23,495 nt of DNA. It comes from an uncultured Succinatimonas sp. (GTDB lineage: Bacteria > Pseudomonadota > Gammaproteobacteria > Enterobacterales > Succinivibrionaceae). Position 1 is the first letter of the stretch, and each line of letters begins with the position of its first letter. The DNA is taken from the NCBI GenBank assembly GCA_900548485.1, contig URKL01000002.1, forward strand, positions 1 through 23,495, in the 5' to 3' direction. Positions 1,226-12,656 of the stretch are shown here, piece by piece. The notes under the pieces are model-generated. The model worked only from the letters and a program-made list of their open reading frames with translations, had not been told where the DNA came from and ran no database searches. Position numbers and translations under genes: made by a program.

Positions 1226-1241
1226 GTTAGCATAAGCTAAC
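1226..1241. promoter_or_regulatory. Upstream operator copy (16-bp palindrome)
   Basis: GTTAGCATAAGCTAAC, with arms GTTAGC/GCTAAC around ATAA. An identical copy lies at 1336-1351, 110 bp centre to centre. This copy sits about 95 bp upstream of the inferred transcription start, where it could serve as an auxiliary site for a looping repressor or as an activator site. The regulator is not identified in the window. Confidence 0.65.
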
Positions 1242-1292
1242 TTAAGCAAAAAAGAAAACAGTATTCCTCTCTTTATTTGTTAATGTCTTGCC

Positions 1293-1321
1293 TTGACAGT
1301 ATTTTCCTAAATCTTTATATT
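1293..1321 (+). promoter_or_regulatory. Sigma-70 promoter of the heme operon
   Basis: TTGACA (1293-1298), a 17-bp spacer, then TATATT (1316-1321). The -35 is a perfect consensus and the -10 has one mismatch. Transcription would start near 1328, about 60 nt before the preferred hutW start. The downstream palindrome at 1336-1351 would then lie at roughly +8 to +23, a typical repressor position. Confidence 0.7.
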
Positions 1322-1335
1322 TCTCCCTCGCCATT

Positions 1336-1351
1336 GTTAGCATAAGCTAAC
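1336..1351. promoter_or_regulatory. Promoter-proximal operator copy (16-bp palindrome)
   Basis: A second exact copy of GTTAGCATAAGCTAAC, just downstream of the predicted -10. I found no third full copy in the window. It does not resemble the Fur box (GATAATGATAATCATTATC), so a different, perhaps heme- or iron-responsive, regulator is inferred. Confidence 0.7.
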
Positions 1352-1387
1352 TACAAATTTTTAAAAGTTTTTGCGAGGATGAGAATT

Positions 1388-2932
1388 ATGCCTATCTCCA
1401 CTAATGCTGAGTTTTTTTTGCCCTTAATTGCCAAGCATAGTAATGACAAAGATGAGGTTAATTTTCATGCCTTAATGGACGAATTACGTGCCTCAAGCTT
1501 TAGCACCTTAATGAAGACTCAAGGGATCAATGCCATGGCCTCAATGGCAAAAGGTATGCCCAAGCATATTGTTGATAAGATGTTAAAAAAACATAATGAA
1601 AATGATGTTTTAGATACTGATTTTAAGGCTCAAATATCCTCTGATCCCATGGCGGAGGCCTTTGTTGAAAAGAGTTTCGCCCACTCAGGTGGAGGAGCTA
1701 CAATGGTTCCTCCTCCTATAAATCCCTTAGCAAGCGATCTTTTAAGTTATGTAAAACGTACCACTTCAAGCGCAGCCTATATCAATGTACCCTTCTGTCA
1801 AACTCGTTGTGCCTTTTGTATGTTCTATATCGCTCCATACAAAAAAGAAGAGTCTCAGCGTTATACAGATGCTGTAATTAAGGAAATGCAATTATGGGCC
1901 GATCGCCCTGCGCAAAATTCAGCTCCAATTCAGGCTTTATATTTAGGAGGTGGTACTCCTACCGCCTTAGAAGCTTCTGACTTAAAACGCATTATAGAAA
2001 AGGCTCGTGAATATTTACCCTTAGCTAATGATGTGGAACTTACTGTTGAAGGACGTCTTTCTTATTTTGACGATCATAAAATGGAAGCCTGTCTTGAAGC
2101 TGGTGCCAATCGATTTTCCCTAGGTGTACAGACCTTTGATACAGAAATTCGTCAAGCTCTAGGTCGTATAAGCCCAAAAGACTCTCTTATCTCTCGTTTA
2201 GAAAAATTGTGCTCTTATAATGAAGCTGCTGTAGTAATCGATCTTATCTTTGGACTTCCAGGCCAAACAAATCAAAATTTTAAAACAGATCTAGAGATTG
2301 TTTCTTCCTTACCAATTCATGGCGTCGATCTCTATCAACTCATCATGCTTGAAAACTCTCCGCTTGAAAAAATAAAACGTACAGGTCGCGATTTAAAATT
2401 ACCCACAAAAGAACAAAGAGCTCGTCTTTATGAACAAGGATGCAAATTCTTACAAGAACATCATTGGCATCAACTTTCTGTAAGTCATTTTGCTCGTACT
2501 CCAAGAGAGCGCAATATCTACAATGTCTTGGCAAAATCTGATGCTGATACCTTAGCTTTTGGACCTGGTGCTGGTGGCAAAATTCAAGGCGTAAGTTTTG
2601 TAAATGGTCGTGATTATGAAGACTATTTTAAAAAGCTCAAAGACTCTCAAAAACCTGTTGCCATGATCTTCATGCCTCCTAAAAACTGGCGTCTTTATAA
2701 AAATTTAGGCGAGATGTTAGAACTTGGTTTTATCGACCGTTATGTCATAAAAAAGAAATATAACCTTGATATTTTAAAGCTCGCCAATGAAGTCTTTATG
2801 CAATGGCAAGAAGCAGGTCTTTTAAATATCACCGATCGCTATATAAATCTCACTCAAGCAGGCCTTTTTTGGTCTGTAACAATGTCGCAACTTCTCCAAA
2901 ATTACTTAATAAAAAATCAAAACCACTTATAA
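1388..2932 (+). CDS. hutW: HutW/ChuW/HmuW-type radical SAM heme-degrading enzyme
   Basis: A HemW-like radical SAM protein of the HutW/ChuW group. These enzymes open the heme ring without oxygen, using S-adenosylmethionine, to release iron and a linear tetrapyrrole (anaerobilin in E. coli O157). The 4Fe-4S motif is CQTRCAFC (Cys137, Cys141, Cys144 from this start), followed by the SAM-binding GGGTPT motif. The family's usual N-terminal segment (DP..EAF....HSGGG) starts only near residue 85, so roughly 85 helical residues are added in front. Start choice: ATG 1388 has GAGGA at 1375-1379 with an 8-nt spacer, while the in-frame ATG at 1379 overlaps that site and has none of its own. It is the first gene of the operon and its iron-tetrapyrrole context separates it from HemW. 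The total of 514 residues exceeds the usual 450-460. Confidence 0.85.
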   Translation: MPISTNAEFFLPLIAKHSNDKDEVNFHALMDELRASSFSTLMKTQGINAMASMAKGMPKHIVDKMLKKHNENDVLDTDFKAQISSDPMAEAFVEKSFAHSGGGATMVPPPINPLASDLLSYVKRTTSSAAYINVPFCQTRCAFCMFYIAPYKKEESQRYTDAVIKEMQLWADRPAQNSAPIQALYLGGGTPTALEASDLKRIIEKAREYLPLANDVELTVEGRLSYFDDHKMEACLEAGANRFSLGVQTFDTEIRQALGRISPKDSLISRLEKLCSYNEAAVVIDLIFGLPGQTNQNFKTDLEIVSSLPIHGVDLYQLIMLENSPLEKIKRTGRDLKLPTKEQRARLYEQGCKFLQEHHWHQLSVSHFARTPRERNIYNVLAKSDADTLAFGPGAGGKIQGVSFVNGRDYEDYFKKLKDSQKPVAMIFMPPKNWRLYKNLGEMLELGFIDRYVIKKKYNLDILKLANEVFMQWQEAGLLNITDRYINLTQAGLFWSVTMSQLLQNYLIKNQNHL

Positions 2933-2971
2933 GAACACCTAACCAACACACTTTTATAAGGAAAAAATTTT

Positions 2972-5023
2972 ATGAAAAAGAACAAAATCTTTTTGGCCGT
3001 AGCTACCTTATTAAGTAGCAGTTCTGTGGTTTTAGCAGAAAATCTAAAAACAGCAGATATTGAAGTTACAGCAACTTTAGTTGAGCGAGATCTTAGTGAT
3101 GTCCCCATGAGTGTCGGTGTTGTCTCTGAAAAAGACATTAAAACTAGCGGAGCACAGACAATAGGCGATCTTTTAAAAGACATTCCTGGTGTGAATTTAA
3201 ATAATGATGGTTCTCAAGGTTTAATCCGTGTCGGTATTCGTGGCGAAAATGCTTTTAGAACCTTAGTCTTAATTGACGGACAAAAGATCTCAGAGCATAA
3301 ATCCATGTCTGGAGCACCTTTACTTATAGATCCAAGTACTGTTGAACGAATTGAGGTCATAAAAGGTCCGGCTTCTGTACAATATGGCGCTGATGCTTTA
3401 GGTGGTGTTATCAATATCATCACTAAGAAAAACTCTGATAAGCCCTTAGGTTTAGATCTCTCCTTAAGTTATGACAGTAAAGCTACCGCAGGCTTTAGCA
3501 CTAATGCCTCTGTCTATGGCTCTAATAATGGCTTTAATTTTAGACTTTCAGGATCTTTTGCAAATGGTGGCGATCTAAAAACTGCACAAGGGCATGTTCC
3601 CAATACAGGCTATCAAAATAGATCAGGATCGGCTTTCTTATCATATGATTTAAATGCTGATACCACTATAGGTCTTATCGCTGATGTCTATAATGCCGAC
3701 ATCCATTCAGGTTTAGATAATCTAGGCTCTTATAAGGATTTTGCAGTTGATATTCCAACTTGGGATCGTCGCAAAGTTGGTATTTTTGCTGAGTTTTTAA
3801 ATCTAAATGACTATTTATCCCGTCTACGCCTTGATGCTTTTTACCAATACAATAATAAAGTCATGTATAACTTAGTCGATATGAGTCCGACTATGAAGAT
3901 GCAAAGCAATGCTGATAATCATATTGAAACACTTGGTCTTAGTGCTCAAGCTGATTGGCAATTAGGTGACTATAATTATTTAATCTCAGGTTTAGGTGCA
4001 AGTTTTGATAATTTATATGCCAAAAACCTCGTTGAAGTTAATGTAAAACAAGGTTTTATGCAGGTGCAACAGCAATCTCAATCAAACTTAAATGGCTACC
4101 AAAATACCTATTATGCCTTTTTAAGTAATGAGACAATATTGCCATCTGACTTTACCGTAAATTACGGAGTACGCTATACATTAGTAGAATCTGCACTACA
4201 AAATTATCAGGAATCTGCTACTACTATTACAAATTTCGGTAATAAATTCTCATCAAGCTCAAGCCCTTATGCTCATCATACCGATAGCCGTCCGGTCTTT
4301 AACATAGGCACAGTGTGGAAAGGTATTGAGGATTTAAGTTTACGCTTAAACTATTCACAAGGCTTCAGATCTCCTATTCTTCAAGAAAGATATACTAACT
4401 CCTCCATGGGTGGTATCACTACATTAGCTAATAGCAATCTTGATCCTGAAACTTCACATAATTTTGAATTAGGTGCACGTTATAACAAAGCTGGTTTTGA
4501 TCTTGATACTGCATTGTACTTTAGCAAAATTAAAGATTACATCAGCACCCAATATCTAAATTCATATACAGCCCAATATAAAAATATTGCTAAAGCTCAG
4601 AGCTTTGGTGCTGAGGTAATTGGTTCATATACCTTTGATAATGGCTTTAAACCCTATGCTAGTATGAATTTTTTACGTCGTAAGTTTGAAACTCCCACTA
4701 GCAGTACCTACTACACCGATACTCCAGCTTTTACCTATCGCTTAGGTTTAGCTTATGACCATGATTATGGCAATTACAGCCTAAATAGCGATCTTTACTT
4801 GCGCGGAGCTACTGAGCGTAAAGCTTTAGCAAGCGATGATAGCCTCTTAAGCTATTCAGGATTCACCACTGCTAATGCACAGATGCTTTTAAGTTTTGGT
4901 AAAGATCGTGCCTATTCAGTAAATTTCCAAGTCCTAAATATTCTCAATAAAGAATACAGAGTAACTAACGCCTTATCAGAACCAGGTCGTCACTTTGTAA
5001 TCACCGCTAACGCCTCATTCTAA
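2972..5023 (+). CDS. TonB-dependent outer-membrane receptor, probably for heme
   Basis: A 683-residue outer-membrane receptor. The signal peptide MKKNKIFLAVATLL...VVLA is probably cut after Ala22. A TonB box (DIEVTAT, residues 29-35) and a plug domain (about 45-150, with IGDLLKDIPGV, LVLIDGQ and RIEVIKGPASVQYGADALGG) follow, then a 22-strand-type barrel ending in Phe. The pair FRSP (465-468) and NSNLDPE (487-493) resembles the FRAP/NPNL signature of heme receptors, but no histidine lies between them, although classical receptors such as ShuA have an axial His there. It would move heme or a related porphyrin into the periplasm using ExbB-ExbD-TonB encoded downstream. The ribosome binding site is TAAGGA at 2957-2962. 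A siderophore or cobalamin ligand is not excluded by sequence; heme is inferred from the operon. Confidence 0.85.
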   Translation: MKKNKIFLAVATLLSSSSVVLAENLKTADIEVTATLVERDLSDVPMSVGVVSEKDIKTSGAQTIGDLLKDIPGVNLNNDGSQGLIRVGIRGENAFRTLVLIDGQKISEHKSMSGAPLLIDPSTVERIEVIKGPASVQYGADALGGVINIITKKNSDKPLGLDLSLSYDSKATAGFSTNASVYGSNNGFNFRLSGSFANGGDLKTAQGHVPNTGYQNRSGSAFLSYDLNADTTIGLIADVYNADIHSGLDNLGSYKDFAVDIPTWDRRKVGIFAEFLNLNDYLSRLRLDAFYQYNNKVMYNLVDMSPTMKMQSNADNHIETLGLSAQADWQLGDYNYLISGLGASFDNLYAKNLVEVNVKQGFMQVQQQSQSNLNGYQNTYYAFLSNETILPSDFTVNYGVRYTLVESALQNYQESATTITNFGNKFSSSSSPYAHHTDSRPVFNIGTVWKGIEDLSLRLNYSQGFRSPILQERYTNSSMGGITTLANSNLDPETSHNFELGARYNKAGFDLDTALYFSKIKDYISTQYLNSYTAQYKNIAKAQSFGAEVIGSYTFDNGFKPYASMNFLRRKFETPTSSTYYTDTPAFTYRLGLAYDHDYGNYSLNSDLYLRGATERKALASDDSLLSYSGFTTANAQMLLSFGKDRAYSVNFQVLNILNKEYRVTNALSEPGRHFVITANASF

Positions 5024-5027
5024 TTTA

Positions 5028-5050
5028 AAAAGGCCTCAACGAGGCCTTTT
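5028..5050 (+). terminator. Intercistronic hairpin between receptor and ECF genes
   Basis: A perfect 10-bp stem AAAAGGCCTC / GAGGCCTTTT with loop AAC, starting 5 nt after the receptor stop. Its T-run is only the 3' arm itself, so it looks like a partial terminator or mRNA-stabilising hairpin that would lower expression of the downstream transporter genes relative to hutW and the receptor. Confidence 0.65.
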
Positions 5051-5084
5051 ATAAGCGTTATTAGCCTTTATAGAGGATTTTAAC

Positions 5085-5621
5085 TTGAAAAAACAATATT
5101 TTAATTGTCGCGATCTTGTAACTTTAGGGGTATTTGCAGCCGCCTCTAAAATTATTACACTGATTATTGCCCTAGCCGGAGGTGGTCCTAACCCCATCTC
5201 AATCTTGATTAAAAATATGGTCTTTACCACGCTTTTAATCATTCTTATCTACAAAATCAGAAAAAGCGGCACCTTAAGTTTATTTTGTTTAGTCTCAGCT
5301 TTTATAAGTTTTTTACTCTTAGGAGCTGGCTTTACTTCCATTCCTTTGAGTTTGCTCTCAGCTGTGCTTGTCGAATTTATAGTATTGCTATGTGGTGGTT
5401 TAAAACGTAGCTATGCCCCTATTCTGGCGGTAGCTCTTTATGATTTTGTCTCACGCATTGCCTCACTCTCAATGTCCTATCTATTTATGCGTGAAATGCC
5501 CCAAATGCTCTTTATGGTAATTACTATCATTTCTTTTGGCTATTTAGGTGCTCTTATAGGTCTTTATACAGGTTTTATCTCAGCTAAGGAGTTACGCCAT
5601 GCAGGCCTTATCAATCAATAA
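5085..5621 (+). CDS. ECF transporter substrate-binding (S) component, MptS/Trep_Strep-like
   Basis: A small, very hydrophobic protein (178 residues) with about six membrane segments and charged loops, the size and topology of an energy-coupling-factor S component. It resembles the MptS/Trep_Strep group more than the named vitamin binders. S components capture the substrate in the inner membrane and dock on EcfT-EcfA. The start codon is TTG at 5085, supported by AGAGGA at 5072-5077 with a 7-nt spacer; the next in-frame Met is about 44 residues in, after the first membrane segment. Its gene overlaps ecfT by 23 bp. Substrate is inferred, not seen: position between a heme-type receptor and hutX points to heme or a tetrapyrrole. 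ECF heme importers (LhaSTA of Staphylococcus lugdunensis) are known in Gram-positives. Confidence 0.75.
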   Translation: MKKQYFNCRDLVTLGVFAAASKIITLIIALAGGGPNPISILIKNMVFTTLLIILIYKIRKSGTLSLFCLVSAFISFLLLGAGFTSIPLSLLSAVLVEFIVLLCGGLKRSYAPILAVALYDFVSRIASLSMSYLFMREMPQMLFMVITIISFGYLGALIGLYTGFISAKELRHAGLINQ

Positions 5622-6375
5622 AAACTCAAGCTTTTTACATAGTTTTGATGTCAGATCTAAGATCAGTGTTTCCATAGTATGCGCAATTGTAGCTTTATTT
5701 ATCTCAAGTCCCCAAGCCTTAACCATCTTATGGTCTTTAAGTTTTAGCTATGTACTTATTTTAAATAGACCTAAAGTCCTTTTAGGAAGCTATCTATTTA
5801 TGGCTGTAATGATGACAATTTCTTTAATTTGCGTACATTTTTTAGGCATTTTATATCCTAATCTTGCACAAGACAGTCTAAGTTTAGATAAGGCTTTAAT
5901 CCCATTTTTGCGCGGGGCTGCGGCTATGAATGCCATATTGCCATTAGCGCTTACGCTTAATATGCATAAGTTTTTAAGTACCTTACAATCTTTGCATTTG
6001 CCTTTGATAATCTATCTGCCTTCAGCTGTCATGATTAGATTTATCCCCTCATTTATTTCAGATATCAAACAGATACATGAAGCTTTAAAGCTTAAAGGTT
6101 TTCAATTAAGACCTAAAAATATTTTCAAAAATCCGCGGCTTTTTATTCGTTTAACCTTTATTCCACTGATCTTTTTGACCTTAAGAACTGCAGACGATTT
6201 AGCCTTAGCTGCTGAACTTAAAGGTGTAGGCCTGAATAACTACACCGTTTATAAAAAACATACCTTAAAAAAGCGGGATTATGTTTTGATCTTTATTGCC
6301 CTAAGTACTGCTTTTCTCGTGCTTTATATCGAAAAAATTAGCGGTGGTACCTTTATTGGAGGTATTCACGGATGA
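5599..6375 (+). CDS. ecfT: ECF transporter T component (transmembrane coupling protein)
   Basis: An EcfT/CbiQ-family membrane protein of 258 residues with an N-terminal membrane block (about 20-125) and the cytoplasmic coupling helices expected to touch the ATPases. The coupling motifs appear as EALKLKGFQ and AAELKGVGL, versions of the family's A-R-G signature. A final membrane segment lies near the C-terminus (VLIFIALSTAFLVLYI). It converts ATP hydrolysis into movement of the S component. The ribosome binding site AAGGAG (5586-5591) lies inside the upstream gene, and the stop overlaps the start of the ATPase gene by 4 bp, so S, T and A are probably translationally coupled and made together. 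Confidence 0.85.
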   Translation: MQALSINKNSSFLHSFDVRSKISVSIVCAIVALFISSPQALTILWSLSFSYVLILNRPKVLLGSYLFMAVMMTISLICVHFLGILYPNLAQDSLSLDKALIPFLRGAAAMNAILPLALTLNMHKFLSTLQSLHLPLIIYLPSAVMIRFIPSFISDIKQIHEALKLKGFQLRPKNIFKNPRLFIRLTFIPLIFLTLRTADDLALAAELKGVGLNNYTVYKKHTLKKRDYVLIFIALSTAFLVLYIEKISGGTFIGGIHG

Positions 6376-7763
6376 TCGAATTAAAAAATGTCAGCTACAG
6401 CTATCCACATGGACAAAAATATTCTGTAGAGGCTCTAAATTTTAAGATTCATGACGGTGAAATCGCTTTAATCACCGGACGTAGCGGTTGTGGTAAATCT
6501 ACATTAGTAAGACTTTGTAACGGTCTATGCCCTCATTACTATGGTGGTAGTTTGCATGGAGAAATTTTAATTGATAATGAAAACTTAAGCTCTTTAGGAG
6601 AAATAAGCCAAATATCTTCGCATCTAGGTTCTCTATTTCAAGATCCTGAGCGTAACTTTTTTGCTTTAAATGTAGAAGAAGAATTAGCCTTTGCTTTGCA
6701 ATGGCAAAATCTTGATCCCAAAACTATTTTAGAACGTCTTGAAGAAGTAATTGCGCGTTTTAAACTTGAGTCTATAAGGGAACATAGCATCAATTCTCTC
6801 TCTGAAGGACAAAAACAAAAGTTAGGTCTAGCTACACAAATTGCCCTTGGAGTTAAAAACCTCGTTTTAGATGAACCTACTGCTAATCTTGATGTAAAGA
6901 GTACTCAAGAACTTACACTAATTTTACAAAAATTAGCCTCAGAAGGTTTTTGTATCTTAATCGTTGATCATCGCCTGCATTATCTACAAGCTCTAAAGCC
7001 TCAAGTTTTAGTTATGGATGAAGGTAGAATCATAAAACAAGGAACTTATGAGATTTTAAAAAATGATCAATTACAAGCACAAGTTCCCCTACGAGCTCTT
7101 ACACTCAACCAAAATCTCTTAAATTACAAAGAAAAAAATATCTTAAATAAAAATGTAATTTTAAAAGGAGAAAAACTTGGTTTTAGCTATAAAGATGGCG
7201 AAACAATCTTCAAAGACTTTGATTTTGAATTAAAAGCCGGCATAACGCTTTTATTAGGAGAAAACGGCCTAGGTAAGACTACTTTATGTAGGCTTATATT
7301 TGGTCTTGAAAAACTACAACAAGGCAAATTTTGCTTTAAAGATCCTCATAGTATATGTGCGATGGTTCTACAAAATACGGACTATCAGCTCCATATGCGT
7401 AGTGTTTATGAAGAACTCTCTACAAGCCTCATTCTTGCCGGTAAACAAGTTGACGATAAGTTAATTTTTAAATATTTAGATGAATTCAATTTAAAAGGCT
7501 TAGATAAATATCATCCGCAATCCCTATCAGGAGGCCAAAAACAACGCCTTGTTTTAGCCTGCGCTTTAATCAAAAATCCTATGCTTTTAATTTTAGACGA
7601 GCCTACAAGCGGACTTGATAAAGCCAATCTCTTGGCCTTAAAAAAACTTTTAAAAACTTTTGTAGAAAATCCCCACAAAGCGGTACTGATTATCACTCAC
7701 GATCCAGAGCTTTTAGATGAAAGTTATCAAATTTTAAATCTCAATCAGGAAAAAATAAAATGA
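6372..7763 (+). CDS. ecfA: ECF transporter ATPase, two fused nucleotide-binding domains
   Basis: A single 463-residue chain with two complete ABC ATPase domains, doing the job of the usual EcfA-EcfA' pair. The first half has Walker A GRSGCGKST, Q-loop LFQDPE, signature LSEGQ, Walker B LVLDEPTANLD and switch VDHR. The second half has Walker A GENGLGKTT, Q-loop VLQN, signature LSGGQ, Walker B LILDEPTSGLD and switch ITHD. All catalytic elements look intact. LFQDPERNFFA is the EcfA-type Q-loop region. The ATG overlaps the ecfT stop (ATGA) and has GGAGG 9 nt upstream. The module is dedicated, with its own S component, rather than a shared vitamin-type module. The fused arrangement also occurs in several other ECF systems. 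Confidence 0.9.
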   Translation: MIELKNVSYSYPHGQKYSVEALNFKIHDGEIALITGRSGCGKSTLVRLCNGLCPHYYGGSLHGEILIDNENLSSLGEISQISSHLGSLFQDPERNFFALNVEEELAFALQWQNLDPKTILERLEEVIARFKLESIREHSINSLSEGQKQKLGLATQIALGVKNLVLDEPTANLDVKSTQELTLILQKLASEGFCILIVDHRLHYLQALKPQVLVMDEGRIIKQGTYEILKNDQLQAQVPLRALTLNQNLLNYKEKNILNKNVILKGEKLGFSYKDGETIFKDFDFELKAGITLLLGENGLGKTTLCRLIFGLEKLQQGKFCFKDPHSICAMVLQNTDYQLHMRSVYEELSTSLILAGKQVDDKLIFKYLDEFNLKGLDKYHPQSLSGGQKQRLVLACALIKNPMLLILDEPTSGLDKANLLALKKLLKTFVENPHKAVLIITHDPELLDESYQILNLNQEKIK

Positions 7764-8263
7764 ATAATTTAGAACAGCAAATCTTAGATATCATCGCTAG
7801 TGGTAAAGCTATGGGCTTAAGCTTTATTGCTAAAACTCTACAAGTTTCCGATAAAGAAGCTATAGAGGCTCTTCCTGCACATATGGCTTTAGTAGTTGAT
7901 AAGGATAAATTTCAAAAAATTTGGAATTTTATGACCTTACAGGAACATCTAACCTTTATAACTCAAGTGAAAAATAGCTTTATCGAAATTAAAACTCAAA
8001 TACTAGCTGGTAAAAATGCACATGGCTATTTTAATTTAATCGGAGATGCTCCTTTAAATGGACATTTAAAGCTTGAAGATATAGCAGAAATTGCACTTCT
8101 ATCTGTACCATTTATGCACCTTGAAAGTCATCAAATCGCCTTTTTAGATGATAAAGGTCAAATTCTTTACTCCTTTTATCTAGGACGTAAGCAACATAAA
8201 CTTATTCCCTCTCAAGTAGATGCCTTTAAAAAATTATGGGAGGAATTGTCATGCGCTCATTAA
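7760..8263 (+). CDS. hutX: HutX/ChuX-type cytosolic heme carrier protein
   Basis: A 167-residue member of the HutX/ChuX heme utilisation carrier family. Recognisable family blocks in order are an N-terminal helical, winged-helix-like part (LSFIAKTLQVSDKEAIEALP), KIWNFMTLQEHLTFI, GYFNLIGDAPLNGHL, VPFMHLESHQIAFLDDKGQI and FYLGRKQHKLIPSQVDAF. In Vibrio and E. coli these proteins bind heme in the cytosol and deliver it to downstream enzymes. Here it would hand imported heme to HutW. It starts at an ATGA overlap with the ATPase gene, with AGGA upstream, and its end overlaps the flavodoxin gene. This gene, with hutW, is the strongest evidence that the operon handles heme rather than a siderophore or vitamin. 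Confidence 0.85.
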   Translation: MNNLEQQILDIIASGKAMGLSFIAKTLQVSDKEAIEALPAHMALVVDKDKFQKIWNFMTLQEHLTFITQVKNSFIEIKTQILAGKNAHGYFNLIGDAPLNGHLKLEDIAEIALLSVPFMHLESHQIAFLDDKGQILYSFYLGRKQHKLIPSQVDAFKKLWEELSCAH

Positions 8264-8763
8264 TTGCCGTAAGTTCCGAAAGTGGAAATACCTATAAATT
8301 AGCCCGTTATATACAAAAAGGTATCGGAAAATCTACTTTAGTTCACCTTCAAAAAGAAGAAGTTTTAGCTGATGATTATGATTTTATCCTTATTGGTTTC
8401 TATGTCGACAAAGGTAAGGTCGATTCTAAAGCCTTAAATTTTATGCATAAGCTTAAACACCATAAAGTAGCCTTATTTGCAACCTTAGGAGGAAATCCAC
8501 AAAGCTCTGAGGCGCAAAAAGTAATGACTTCTGCCACAGCACTTCTAGAACAACAAGACAATCATATTGTCGGCACTTTAATGCGTCAGGGGAAAATAGC
8601 TCCCGAGGTCTTAGCATCTATGTATAAGCTCATGCCACACCTTAAAGAAGATAAAGAACATTTAGAAAGAATTGCCAGAGCATCTACCCACCCTGATGCA
8701 AACGACAAAATTATCAGCATGCTCACAGCAACCCATTGGCTTAAAAAAGTTCTAAGCTTATAG
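8251..8763 (+). CDS. Flavodoxin-family protein of the heme operon, HmuF/BilS-like role inferred
   Basis: A 170-residue flavodoxin fold protein. The FMN phosphate loop is SSESGNTYKLA at residues 8-18, with the second strand FILIGFYVDKGKVD and the third ALFATLGGNP. Start choice: ATG 8251 has GGGAGGA at 8238-8244 with a 6-nt spacer; an in-frame ATG at 8236 would have none. The gene overlaps hutX by 13 bp. A flavodoxin next to hutW and hutX fits the Fusobacterium hmu locus, where HmuF works with heme and reduces anaerobilin. It could alternatively supply electrons to the radical SAM cluster of HutW. No ChuY-type anaerobilin reductase is present in the operon, which supports the reductase idea, but sequence alone cannot choose between these roles. 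Confidence 0.7.
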   Translation: MRSLIAVSSESGNTYKLARYIQKGIGKSTLVHLQKEEVLADDYDFILIGFYVDKGKVDSKALNFMHKLKHHKVALFATLGGNPQSSEAQKVMTSATALLEQQDNHIVGTLMRQGKIAPEVLASMYKLMPHLKEDKEHLERIARASTHPDANDKIISMLTATHWLKKVLSL

Positions 8764-8771
8764 GAAAATTT

Positions 8772-9401
8772 ATGCAAAACATTAACTTTTTTGATATTTA
8801 CAAACTCATAGGACCTTGTGGTGTAGTAATAGCCATTTTAGCTGTAATCGCCATTTTTATTTGCTTAAAAAATCTTATCTATACCACTTGGTCATGGCAT
8901 ACTTTTCAAAAAGATTTTTTAAATGTCAAAATCTTTGCTAACCGTTGTTTAAAAGACTATCAAGGCTCAAATCCATTTTTAAGTATCATCCATGATATTG
9001 TCGCTGATCATTCCAAACACTCAGACGATCTTCGCGCAGAAGTAGGTTATTTATTCAACCGCAATTTTAGAAGTGTTATAAATGGCATGTCTTGGATCAA
9101 AATGATCACCGTAATTTCCCCGCTCTTAGGACTATTAGGTACAGTAAGTGGCATGTTGATACTCTTTGATACTATCTCGCTTTCAACTGCCCAAAATCCT
9201 GAATTATTAGCTAAAGGCATCTATCAGGCTTTAATCACCACCGTCATGGGCTTAGTAGTCGCAGTACCTTCTTTAATTATCTACTACTATCTATCTTTAC
9301 GTATGCGTAATTTCTACATTGAAGTTATTGAGCATTCTTATCGCGCTGTAAAAATTTGTGCTGATGCTATACATCAAGGAGAGAGTCGTGAAATTAAATA
9401 G
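8772..9401 (+). CDS. exbB: ExbB, proton-channel subunit of the TonB energiser
   Basis: A MotA/TolQ/ExbB-family protein of 209 residues with an N-terminal membrane segment (about 14-34), a cytoplasmic region, then two membrane segments in the C-terminal half (WIKMITVISPLLGLLGTVSGM and ITTVMGLVVAVPSLIIYYY). GLLGTVSGM and the following T/A-rich segment are the family's conserved pore region. With ExbD it forms the inner-membrane proton channel that powers TonB. It follows the flavodoxin gene by 8 bp and overlaps exbD by 14 bp, so it is dedicated to this operon's receptor. Confidence 0.9.
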   Translation: MQNINFFDIYKLIGPCGVVIAILAVIAIFICLKNLIYTTWSWHTFQKDFLNVKIFANRCLKDYQGSNPFLSIIHDIVADHSKHSDDLRAEVGYLFNRNFRSVINGMSWIKMITVISPLLGLLGTVSGMLILFDTISLSTAQNPELLAKGIYQALITTVMGLVVAVPSLIIYYYLSLRMRNFYIEVIEHSYRAVKICADAIHQGESREIK

Positions 9402-9786
9402 CGAACCTGATTTTATGCAAGAAGAGGTGAGCTTAGATCTCACCCCACTTATCGATGTCATCTTTATGTTAGTGATTTTTTTTATTTTAACTATGTCTTT
9501 TTCTAAGCCAGTTTTAGACATAGTTTTACCAAAATCACAAAATGCGAGCGTAGCTACTCAAGATAAGATTATCACTATCAAAATTAGTGCTGATAATCTT
9601 TATTACTATGAAGAGAAAATTATAACCATTGAGGAAATATCTGCACTTTTAGATGTAAAAAACGATCACAATTTGAATCTTTATCCTGATAAAGACATTA
9701 AATTTCAAAGCTTCATTGATTTAGTTGATCTTGCACAAAAAAAGCGAGCAGGTCGCTTTGCGGTCACGGCAATAAAAGAGCCTTAA
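9388..9786 (+). CDS. exbD: ExbD, TonB energiser subunit
   Basis: A 132-residue ExbD/TolR-family protein with one membrane segment and a periplasmic domain. The conserved motif LDLTPLIDVIFMLVIFFI contains the proton-carrying Asp (residue 23 here). Start: GTG at 9388 has AAGGAGAG at 9376-9383, just inside the end of exbB; the in-frame ATG at 9358 would put ten extra polar residues in front of the family start and has no such site. It works with ExbB and TonB at the inner membrane. The stop is 4 bp before tonB. Confidence 0.88.
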   Translation: MKLNSEPDFMQEEVSLDLTPLIDVIFMLVIFFILTMSFSKPVLDIVLPKSQNASVATQDKIITIKISADNLYYYEEKIITIEEISALLDVKNDHNLNLYPDKDIKFQSFIDLVDLAQKKRAGRFAVTAIKEP

Positions 9787-9790
9787 AGAT

Positions 9791-10519
9791 ATGCTAAAAG
9801 ATCCTCTATCAAGCAAATCGTCATATATCTCCGCCCTAAGCACCCTGTTCTTAATTATAGGAATATCTTTGGTGTTTTTTAAAAATCAAACCACGATAAA
9901 AGAGATTAGTAGTTTTGAAACTAAACCTTATGAAAGTACCATTTTTAGTACGGTAAACTTTATCTCTAAAAATCAAATAGAAGAGATACAAACTCAAGAT
10001 AAAAATATAATTGAACCTAAAGTAGATGAGCCTTTGGTTCAAGAAAAAATAAAGGAGAACTTAAATCAAAACAAGATTGAACCTGCACCTAAAAAAAAGC
10101 CCCAAAAAAAATCTTTAAAAAAGCAAAATTATCAAAAAAAAGATTTAAATAATAATGAGATAAAAGCAAATAAAAACTATGGAGATAACAATAAAAATCT
10201 TAAAGTACAAAATACGAGTGTCGCTACTAAAGCTAATTACAATAAGGCTTTAAATGAACTTTTATCAAAGATAAACAAGATTAAAGCCTACCCATCTCGA
10301 GCTCGCAAATTAAAACTTGAAGGCCGCTGTGAACTTTTATTTAAAATAAATCAACAAGGCGAGGTTTTAAGTTATACCTTACATAAATCTACATCTAAAA
10401 ATCTTTTAGATGTAGCTTGTAGGCGTATAGGAAAACAATTATTGGGATTTAATTTAAGCCATTTTGGATCTAATCTTGAGGTAACCGTTCCCATTAACTT
10501 TAAACTTAAAAATCTCTAA
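9791..10519 (+). CDS. tonB: TonB, energy transducer to the outer-membrane receptor
   Basis: A 242-residue TonB: short cytoplasmic N-terminus, one membrane anchor (about 12-32, ISALSTLFLIIGISLVFF), a long Lys/Asn/Gln/Glu-rich periplasmic linker (about 60-140) in place of the usual Pro-rich EPK repeats, and a C-terminal TonB domain (about 150-242) with the family pattern AYPSRARKLKLEGRCELLF and a VPINF ending. The histidine normally found in the anchor (SxxxH) is absent; the equivalent stretch is SALST. Its upstream ribosome binding site is weak (AAAG), and coupling to exbD (4 bp gap) probably helps. Last gene of the operon; an IS200/IS605 remnant begins 1 bp after the stop. Confidence 0.85.
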   Translation: MLKDPLSSKSSYISALSTLFLIIGISLVFFKNQTTIKEISSFETKPYESTIFSTVNFISKNQIEEIQTQDKNIIEPKVDEPLVQEKIKENLNQNKIEPAPKKKPQKKSLKKQNYQKKDLNNNEIKANKNYGDNNKNLKVQNTSVATKANYNKALNELLSKINKIKAYPSRARKLKLEGRCELLFKINQQGEVLSYTLHKSTSKNLLDVACRRIGKQLLGFNLSHFGSNLEVTVPINFKLKNL

Positions 10520-12095: not shown

Positions 12096-12656
12096 TTAAT
12101 TTACTTTATCTAAGAAAGTCTTAACCTTAATTTCATCATCATCTGCTGTAAAGCCTTGTCCAGTTTTCCATATTGCCTCAGGCACTAAAGCCTTTAAAAA
12201 CTCAGCACTATCTCCCATGCCGGTCATATGCGAGGTACAAAAAGGAATTACAGTCTTACCCTTTAAATTGTATTTCTCAACAAAGCTATAGACAACTTTA
12301 GGAGCTTTACCAAGCCAAATTGGATAGCCCAAATAAATAACCTGATATTTATCAAGATTTGGCAAAGGATTTGCAATGGCTGGTCGTGCATCAGCATTAT
12401 TTTGCTCTAAATATGCACGTGAATTTTTATTTTTAACATTTAAATCTTCTTGAGTGTAAGGAACCTCAGCTTCAATACGATAGATGTCGCTTAAAGTAAG
12501 TTTAGCTATATCATTTGCAAATGTCTGCGTCGTTCCTGAATAAGAAAAATATGCTACTAAAGATTTTTCTGTAGTCTGTGTGGAGCTAACACAGCCACTT
12601 AAAGCTACTAAAGAAGTTGAAATTAAAATAATTGTCGACAATAGCCATTTTTTCAT
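12096..12656 (-). CDS. Exported lipoprotein with flavodoxin domain
   Basis: A 186-residue protein: lipoprotein signal peptide with lipobox LSGC (modified Cys22, followed by Val, so no Asp inner-membrane retention signal), then a flavodoxin_4-type domain. The FMN loop is YFSYSGTTQTFA (about 36-47), followed by the ring-contacting segments YLGYPIWLGKAP and FCTSHMTGMGDSAEF. A flavodoxin anchored outside the cytoplasm would need an extracytoplasmic electron donor and FMN supply; related exported flavodoxins exist in gut anaerobes but I do not know a proven role. The ribosome binding site GAGGAG is 6 nt before the ATG and lies in a long hairpin with upstream sequence. It follows a glycosyltransferase gene on the same strand by 80 bp. 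Confidence 0.75.
   Translation of the reverse strand: MKKWLLSTIILISTSLVALSGCVSSTQTTEKSLVAYFSYSGTTQTFANDIAKLTLSDIYRIEAEVPYTQEDLNVKNKNSRAYLEQNNADARPAIANPLPNLDKYQVIYLGYPIWLGKAPKVVYSFVEKYNLKGKTVIPFCTSHMTGMGDSAEFLKALVPEAIWKTGQGFTADDDEIKVKTFLDKVN

Follow-up and report, generated by a model that had tools for sequence, protein, structure and literature searches.

We analyzed a 23,495-nucleotide stretch of contig URKL01000002.1 from an uncultured Succinatimonas sp. (hereafter the window; all coordinates are positions within it), and describe an operon of ten genes that joins a TonB-dependent outer-membrane receptor, an energy-coupling factor (ECF) transporter and proteins of anaerobic heme handling. 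The operon very probably constitutes a self-contained anaerobic heme-iron scavenging system in which the ECF module, with heme as its presumed ligand, replaces HmuT/HmuUV. Gene families were called by NCBIfam and Pfam profile scans, each against the model's own cut-off. The genes and features of the locus are as follows (aa, amino acids; ABC, ATP-binding cassette).

1226-1241, no strand: operator-like palindrome GTTAGCATAAGCTAAC, copy 1 (motif GTTAGY-N4-RCTAAC)
1293-1321, + strand: candidate sigma-70 promoter, TTGACA-17-TATATT (consensus match, 11/12)
1336-1351, no strand: operator-like palindrome, copy 2, identical (GTTAGCATAAGCTAAC), just downstream of the candidate promoter
1379-2932, + strand: hutW, anaerobic heme-opening radical S-adenosylmethionine enzyme of the anaerobilin synthase family, 517 aa (TIGR04107, 483.3 bits; cut-off 400)
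2972-5023, + strand: TonB-dependent outer-membrane receptor, 683 aa (PF00593 and PF07715 over cut-off)
5028-5050, + strand: intercistronic hairpin between the receptor gene and ecfS, from folding
5085-5621, + strand: ecfS, predicted substrate-binding S component, 178 aa, six predicted helices, TTG start (PF09605, 32.7 bits; cut-off 28.7)
5599-6375, + strand: ecfT, transmembrane T component (PF02361, 66.2 bits)
6372-7763, + strand: ecfA, two fused ABC ATPase domains, 463 aa (PF00005 in two stretches)
7760-8263, + strand: hutX, cytosolic heme carrier (TIGR04108, 129 bits; cut-off 110)
8236-8763, + strand: hmuF-like flavodoxin gene (PF12641, 118.8 bits)
8772-9401, + strand: exbB (PF01618, 78 bits)
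9358-9786, + strand: exbD (PF02472, 82.9 bits); the start codon may be further in
9791-10519, + strand: tonB (TIGR01352, 35.2 bits, cut-off 27.1; PF03544, 44.2 bits)

All ten genes lie on the plus strand between 1379 and 10519 and are tightly spaced, with overlaps between S and T, T and A, A and HutX, and HutX and the flavodoxin. The family scans confirmed the gene content given in a preliminary description of this DNA, namely a receptor with ExbB-ExbD-TonB, an ECF S-T-A set, HutX, HutW and a flavodoxin in one ten-gene operon. The end that it gave, 10519, also stood, whereas its start, 1226, is that of the first operator-like palindrome and the first gene begins at 1379. HutW carries a CxxxCxxC motif, and HutX matched PDB chain 5exv (Hemin-degrading HemS.ChuX domain protein) at E 1.6e-26. 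The S, T and A genes are adjacent, as in a dedicated (group I) ECF module, and the set comprises a membrane S component with a predicted S-component fold, a T component and ABC ATPases, which together make an ECF transporter. The best NCBIfam model for EcfA was TIGR04520 (259.7 bits, under the cut-off of 315). None of the operon's ten proteins was a FecCD permease or a periplasmic binding protein in the NCBIfam and Pfam scans. Chance is excluded as the source of this arrangement, because a similar gene order was found in other phyla at 38-63% identity of S.

Distribution of the operon and linkage of S to HutW

A 28-sequence alignment of S was scanned against a genome collection holding one genome per species (84,980 species). 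This recovered 59 loci with relatives of S, which span at least four phyla and have named sources in Succinivibrionaceae, Sutterellaceae, Desulfovibrionaceae, several Desulfobacteria families, a Geobacter bin, Mucispirillum, SAR324 and Opitutales. The NCBI label 'Myxococcota' on eight 'Deltaproteobacteria bacterium' bins was taken for a naming effect and was not counted as a phylum. L numbers denote loci and G numbers genomes of this analysis, and thresholds for the presence of a gene in a locus were set by us. Many of the contigs are short; across the 59 loci, T and A were each found in 57, the receptor in 53, HutW in 52, the flavodoxin in 51, HutX in 41, ExbB in 40, ExbD in 37 and TonB in 30. 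HutW lay within the fetched stretch in all 46 loci with at least 4.5 kb of contig upstream, and the seven loci without HutW all have 2.4 kb of contig or less on that side; in L025 it is 9.9 kb off on the opposite strand and in L037 it is downstream. TIGR04107 was the best model for each of ten divergent HutWs, with seven over the cut-off, two from Opitutales at 384 of the 400 bits and one partial. HutX was undetected in nine divergent loci that have the flavodoxin (L045-L049, L051 and L053-L055). The S-T-A genes thus stand beside hutW both in Succinivibrionaceae and in other anaerobes, where the preliminary description had suggested that they be sought.

The association held when whole families were sampled. 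Within the family of Succinatimonas hippei (G002), strong S matches (E below 1e-70) were found in four of 56 genomes, and HutW was over cut-off in those same four; four more genomes gave weak S-profile matches and no HutW over cut-off. Within the family of Desulfovibrio sp. MES5 (G008; 199 genomes), 30 genomes have S (E below 1e-50), 31 have HutW over cut-off and 30 have both (Fisher p 9e-35, a value that ignores kinship). In 28 of the 30 carriers, the two genes share a contig and are within 10 kb of each other. In G198 they are on separate contigs and hutW with the receptor gene reaches the contig end, and in G123 hutW is about 29 kb from the S-T-A-HutX-flavodoxin genes. HutW-only genomes were considered as possible users of another importer; the single case, G183, was uninformative, its contig ending inside a receptor gene.

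Tree distances of the ECF proteins correlated with those of HutW at 0.898 (49 rows) and with those of the receptor at 0.832 (46 rows), and none of 1000 permutations was as high in either comparison. The 49 rows are the window plus the 48 loci in which all four proteins passed our thresholds; the trees were quickly built and have long branches. Mucispirillum genes cluster with those of Desulfovibrionaceae in both the ECF and the HutW trees, a placement that fits transfer between phyla and is no proof of it.

Several further observations concern the loci themselves. Three genes each appear as two or three open reading frames (ORFs), namely hutW in L036 (6341-7765), the receptor gene in L031 (1832-4051) and ecfA in L028 (11286-12762), and these copies may be broken genes or assembly errors. 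Many Sutterellaceae loci and one Geobacter bin have a pair of ABC-2 type exporter genes close to the operon (for example L011:15631-17327, L022:4498-6230, L039:6106-7679 and L058:17938-19657; L011 was scanned and fell under the cut-offs, the others were recognized by eye), which possibly exports anaerobilin or surplus porphyrin. Genes for MntR/DtxR-like regulators adjoin the operon in L030 (13804-14391) and L058 (17534-17938), both under cut-offs. Small pyridoxamine-oxidase-like split-barrel proteins were seen by eye near the operon in L051 (13327-13785, with no NCBIfam match) and L037 (2045-2515).

Control region and cytosolic partners

The two palindrome copies flank the candidate promoter. 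With at most one mismatch, the motif GTTAGY-N4-RCTAAC occurs twice in the window against 0.30 expected, and two or more occurrences were seen in five of 100 shuffles. The promoter scan, at a threshold of 9 of 12, returned one site against a mean of 1.7 in shuffles. The motif also precedes hutW in relatives, exactly in L001, L003 and L004 and with one mismatch in G002. Genome-wide, exact sites number 4, 2, 3 and 6 in G001 to G004 (1, 0, 0 and 0 for the reversed control), and all three in G003 fall in the heme operon. These 15 places comprise six in this operon, one at feoA-feoB, one at a ZIP transporter gene and one at a cysteine-rich ORF with a Fur-like gene; at the remaining six, no metal gene was recognized by eye. 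In G004, an exact and a one-mismatch site stand directly before feoA-feoB, and an exact site overlaps the start of the ZIP transporter ORF. An exact site in G001 precedes the small cysteine-rich ORF, which is followed by Fur-like and MntR-like genes (weak matches, both under cut-off).

Upstream of feoB, one-mismatch sites were found in G002 and G003 and a two-mismatch site in G001, with none at a second G002 feoB. Five FeoB genes passed the cut-off in G001-G004, and for three of them a site with no more than one mismatch stands 320-545 bases before the FeoB match; about 0.007 such sites per 1.5 kb are expected (mononucleotide shuffling). The sharing of the operator with feoAB in relatives suggests iron control, and we infer that an iron-responsive repressor acts through the paired operator. 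No copy with fewer than two mismatches was found in seven loci of other lineages, so the operator is claimed for Succinivibrionaceae only. Candidate metal-repressor operators were recorded at the window locus and at L001, L003, L004, L066, L072, L074, L104, L106, L108 and L109.

The hairpin between the receptor gene and ecfS folds in the window and in four relatives, its sequences being unlike in the five cases. A hairpin at this place with z below -2 against mononucleotide shuffles was found in 24 of the 35 loci tested (of 59), and it may make transcription uneven, with more receptor than transporter.

The flavodoxin had one PDB match at E 0.01, Fusobacterium nucleatum FldH (8g64, E 2e-14), and scored 92.7 bits against NF045594 (BilS), under the cut-off of 155. 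FldH is a paralog of HmuF and both bind heme and FMN (flavin mononucleotide); F. nucleatum HmuF also delivers heme to HmuW and acts on anaerobilin as its reductase (PMC10404700). By analogy, the window flavodoxin likely serves in heme trafficking and/or as an anaerobilin reductase. Given this kinship, the pathway's final portion is more complete than stated in the preliminary description. H135 was considered as the counterpart of the heme ligand at FldH position 134, for which the alignment gave no clear support, H135 being two columns off; in the alignment rows displayed, a histidine stands at or near that column in many relatives and not in all. M129 and H152 are invariant (44/44). HutX and the flavodoxin form one protein in a Mucispirillum-type locus (L006:12758-13975, family scan), and the two queries match one ORF each in L007, L008, L009, L012, L014 and L015. 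A second flavodoxin-like protein of 186 aa with a lipoprotein-type signal was seen by eye on the minus strand of the window at 12096-12656.

Substrate of the ECF module

The S component matches PF09605 narrowly, scores 28.7 bits against TIGR02185 (far under 76.45) and has a sub-cut-off match to DUF3270. These were its only model matches, so S does not fall in a vitamin or metal family; firm grouping with such a family was what the preliminary description had named as a finding that would refute its reading. By its sequence, S is a divergent branch relative to the MptD/Trep_Strep family models (PF09605, TIGR02185), and two of the relatives listed are named 'MptD family putative ECF transporter S component' at their source. 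Its fold is predicted to be the one common to ECF S components; neither S nor the S alignment matched any sequence in the PDB. GGG-x-NP and R136-E137 are invariant in all 60 rows and lie in or beside predicted loops. For the receptor, the best NCBIfam models are hemoglobin/heme receptors (TIGR01786, 212 bits; TIGR01785, 200 bits), with siderophore (141 bits) and B12 (126 bits) models scoring lower. The heme receptor PhuR is its second PDB match, counting distinct molecules (80.6 bits), and BtuB chains are also among the matches. Receptor residue 479, between the FRAP-like and NPNL-like boxes, is Met in 38 and His in 15 of the 53 lettered rows, which accounts for all 53.

These data are consistent with a route in which the TonB-dependent receptor, energized by its own ExbB-ExbD-TonB, would move heme into the periplasm, where the membrane-embedded S component, rather than a soluble HmuT-type protein, would bind it directly. 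The dedicated EcfT and the fused EcfA would power transit through the inner membrane. In the cytosol, HutX and the HmuF-like flavodoxin would presumably receive the heme, HutW would open the ring using S-adenosylmethionine, freeing Fe2+, and the flavodoxin would reduce the HutW product. This reading is well supported by the comparison of loci. The preliminary description had named heme as the substrate on the strength of hutW and hutX, and the linkage and co-occurrence of S-T-A with hutW now support this presumed substrate from gene context.

Several findings weigh against heme import by this route. No His, Cys or Met is invariant in S: H172, near the C-terminus, is present in 51 of 59 rows and M135 in 41 of 60, and among possible ligands Y153, in helix 6, is the best conserved (58/59). 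Spectra of LhaS, the S component of a heme importer of Staphylococcus lugdunensis, suggest His ligation (PMC7299338). The receptor stays under the cut-offs of TIGR01785 and TIGR01786 (316.85 and 323.75), reaching that of no heme model, and the colicin I receptor heads its PDB sequence matches (99.9 bits). A FecCD permease was over cut-off in 19 of 25 carrier genomes, where the ECF module need not be the sole route. In favor of the ECF route, no FecCD permease passed the cut-off in the six other carriers (G001, G002, G004, with one sub-cut-off match, G005, G023 and G024), and none of these had a Peripla_BP_2 protein. G003, the seventh genome searched for both parts, has one FecCD permease and one Peripla_BP_2 protein; the binding-protein search covered these seven of the 25 carriers, and genome completeness is not given. 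Three of the four Succinivibrionaceae carriers, one Bilophila and two Opitutales thus seem to lack the whole HmuTUV class. An HmuTUV importer elsewhere in the genome, the other outcome raised earlier against heme import by the ECF module, was not found in the Succinivibrionaceae relatives G001, G002 and G004, whereas G003 retains candidates for both parts; these genomes are those of relatives and not the window's own.

There is a small but real chance that heme is imported mainly as a cofactor for a non-synthesizing organism, with HutW and HmuF handling the surplus, a reading that is compatible with heme import and whose odds overlap with it. Ferrochelatase (PF00762) was not found in G001, G003 and G004, for which genome completeness is not given, and was present in G002, so that heme auxotrophy of the first three is possible. 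On the other hand, HutW destroys heme and is the most constant partner, and the operator shared with feoAB in relatives points to iron.

The main rival for the substrate is another iron chelate, such as a ferric siderophore, with the ECF module sharing operon and control with the heme genes and heme entering elsewhere. We consider this quite unlikely, although the closest other PF09605 proteins examined do lie in siderophore-like loci, which also counts against heme. In a Desulfovibrio family locus (L098; Pfam), a PF09605 relative occurs with an AraC regulator, a TonB receptor, ABC half-transporters and a methyltransferase, and L099 is similar by eye; in three Succinatimonas-family genomes (L100-L102; Pfam), PF09605 relatives lie beside AMP-ligase genes, in L100 also with a condensation/carrier protein. 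An ECF importer has been suggested for a metallophore-type nonribosomal peptide synthetase cluster of S. lugdunensis (PMC12709192), and the colicin I receptor match of the receptor points the same way. However, none of six weak-match S genes has HutW over cut-off on its own contig, and the five that were fetched have no GGGxNP motif by eye. Inspection by eye of 14 heme-type loci showed no siderophore synthesis gene, and HutW is constant; HutX and the flavodoxin genes count against a siderophore, and the receptor scores 141 bits against siderophore models versus 200-212 against heme models. PF09605 may, from these neighborhoods, be a wider iron-chelate group. Import of a corrinoid, porphyrin or metal ion is highly improbable: EcfT matches PF02361/CbiQ, a family that spans T components generally, and the receptor plug resembles BtuB, chains of which occur among the PDB matches, but the B12 receptor model reaches 126 bits versus 200-212 for heme models, no model for cobalt, nickel or a vitamin matched S at the thresholds applied, and HutW and HutX pass heme-specific models.

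Returning to heme import through the ECF module, it is likely that a route from TonB receptor to S to cytosol, with no periplasmic binding protein, has spread horizontally and is common to Gram-negative anaerobes of at least four phyla, that this route constantly accompanies HutW in the sampled Desulfovibrio family and occurs with HutW in Sutterellaceae, Mucispirillum and some Succinivibrionaceae, and that S belongs to a wider iron-chelate-importing PF09605 group. If true, the ECF route would explain how heme iron could be acquired by gut anaerobes such as Bilophila, Sutterella, Parasutterella and Mucispirillum, and it would assign a role to a set of 'MptD family putative ECF S components'. 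The hand-over of a greasy ligand from receptor to S would also become directly testable.

Relation to known heme systems

Gram-negative heme uptake is described as a receptor, a periplasmic binding protein and an HmuUV-type ABC importer (PMC10404700, PMC11442138). No Gram-negative ECF heme importer was found in the open-licence PubMed Central literature among the matches listed, and term searches in the reviews PMC12670364 and PMC11442138 returned ECF only as sigma factors.

As the preliminary description had held, ECF heme import is known from LhaSTA of S. lugdunensis, which is an established ECF heme importer, and the operon resembles it, in a comparison by description, in the ECF S-T-A set, the heme-operon setting and, for the window operon putatively, iron regulation; LhaS binds heme (PMC7299338). 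LhaSTA differs in being Gram-positive, with no outer-membrane receptor or TonB, and in having Isd proteins instead of HutW, HutX and HmuF. SiaFGH of Streptococcus pyogenes is reported to transport heme, going by the title of Chatterjee 2020. In an MtsR-regulon table, its ECF S, T and A genes stand beside heme ABC transporter genes (PMC6593403). It too is Gram-positive, and it adjoins a conventional heme ABC importer; it was set beside the window genes by annotation.

A Gram-negative parallel is hmuTRUVWF of F. nucleatum, an anaerobic heme operon with a TonB receptor, an anaerobilin synthase and the HmuF flavodoxin, and related clusters include exbB, exbD and tonB (PMC10404700). That operon has the periplasmic HmuT and HmuUV, whereas the window operon has ECF S-T-A instead, plus HutX. 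The hutWXZ/chu systems of Vibrio cholerae and Escherichia coli O157:H7 use conventional periplasmic-binding-protein ABC importers. In these systems HutW/ChuW and HutX/ChuX handle intracellular heme (PMC12670364, PMC10404700), and HutZ or ChuY occurs where the window operon has the HmuF-like protein. The individual parts of the operon are known, and it is their combination, its wide spread and the replacement of HmuTUV that appear to be new.

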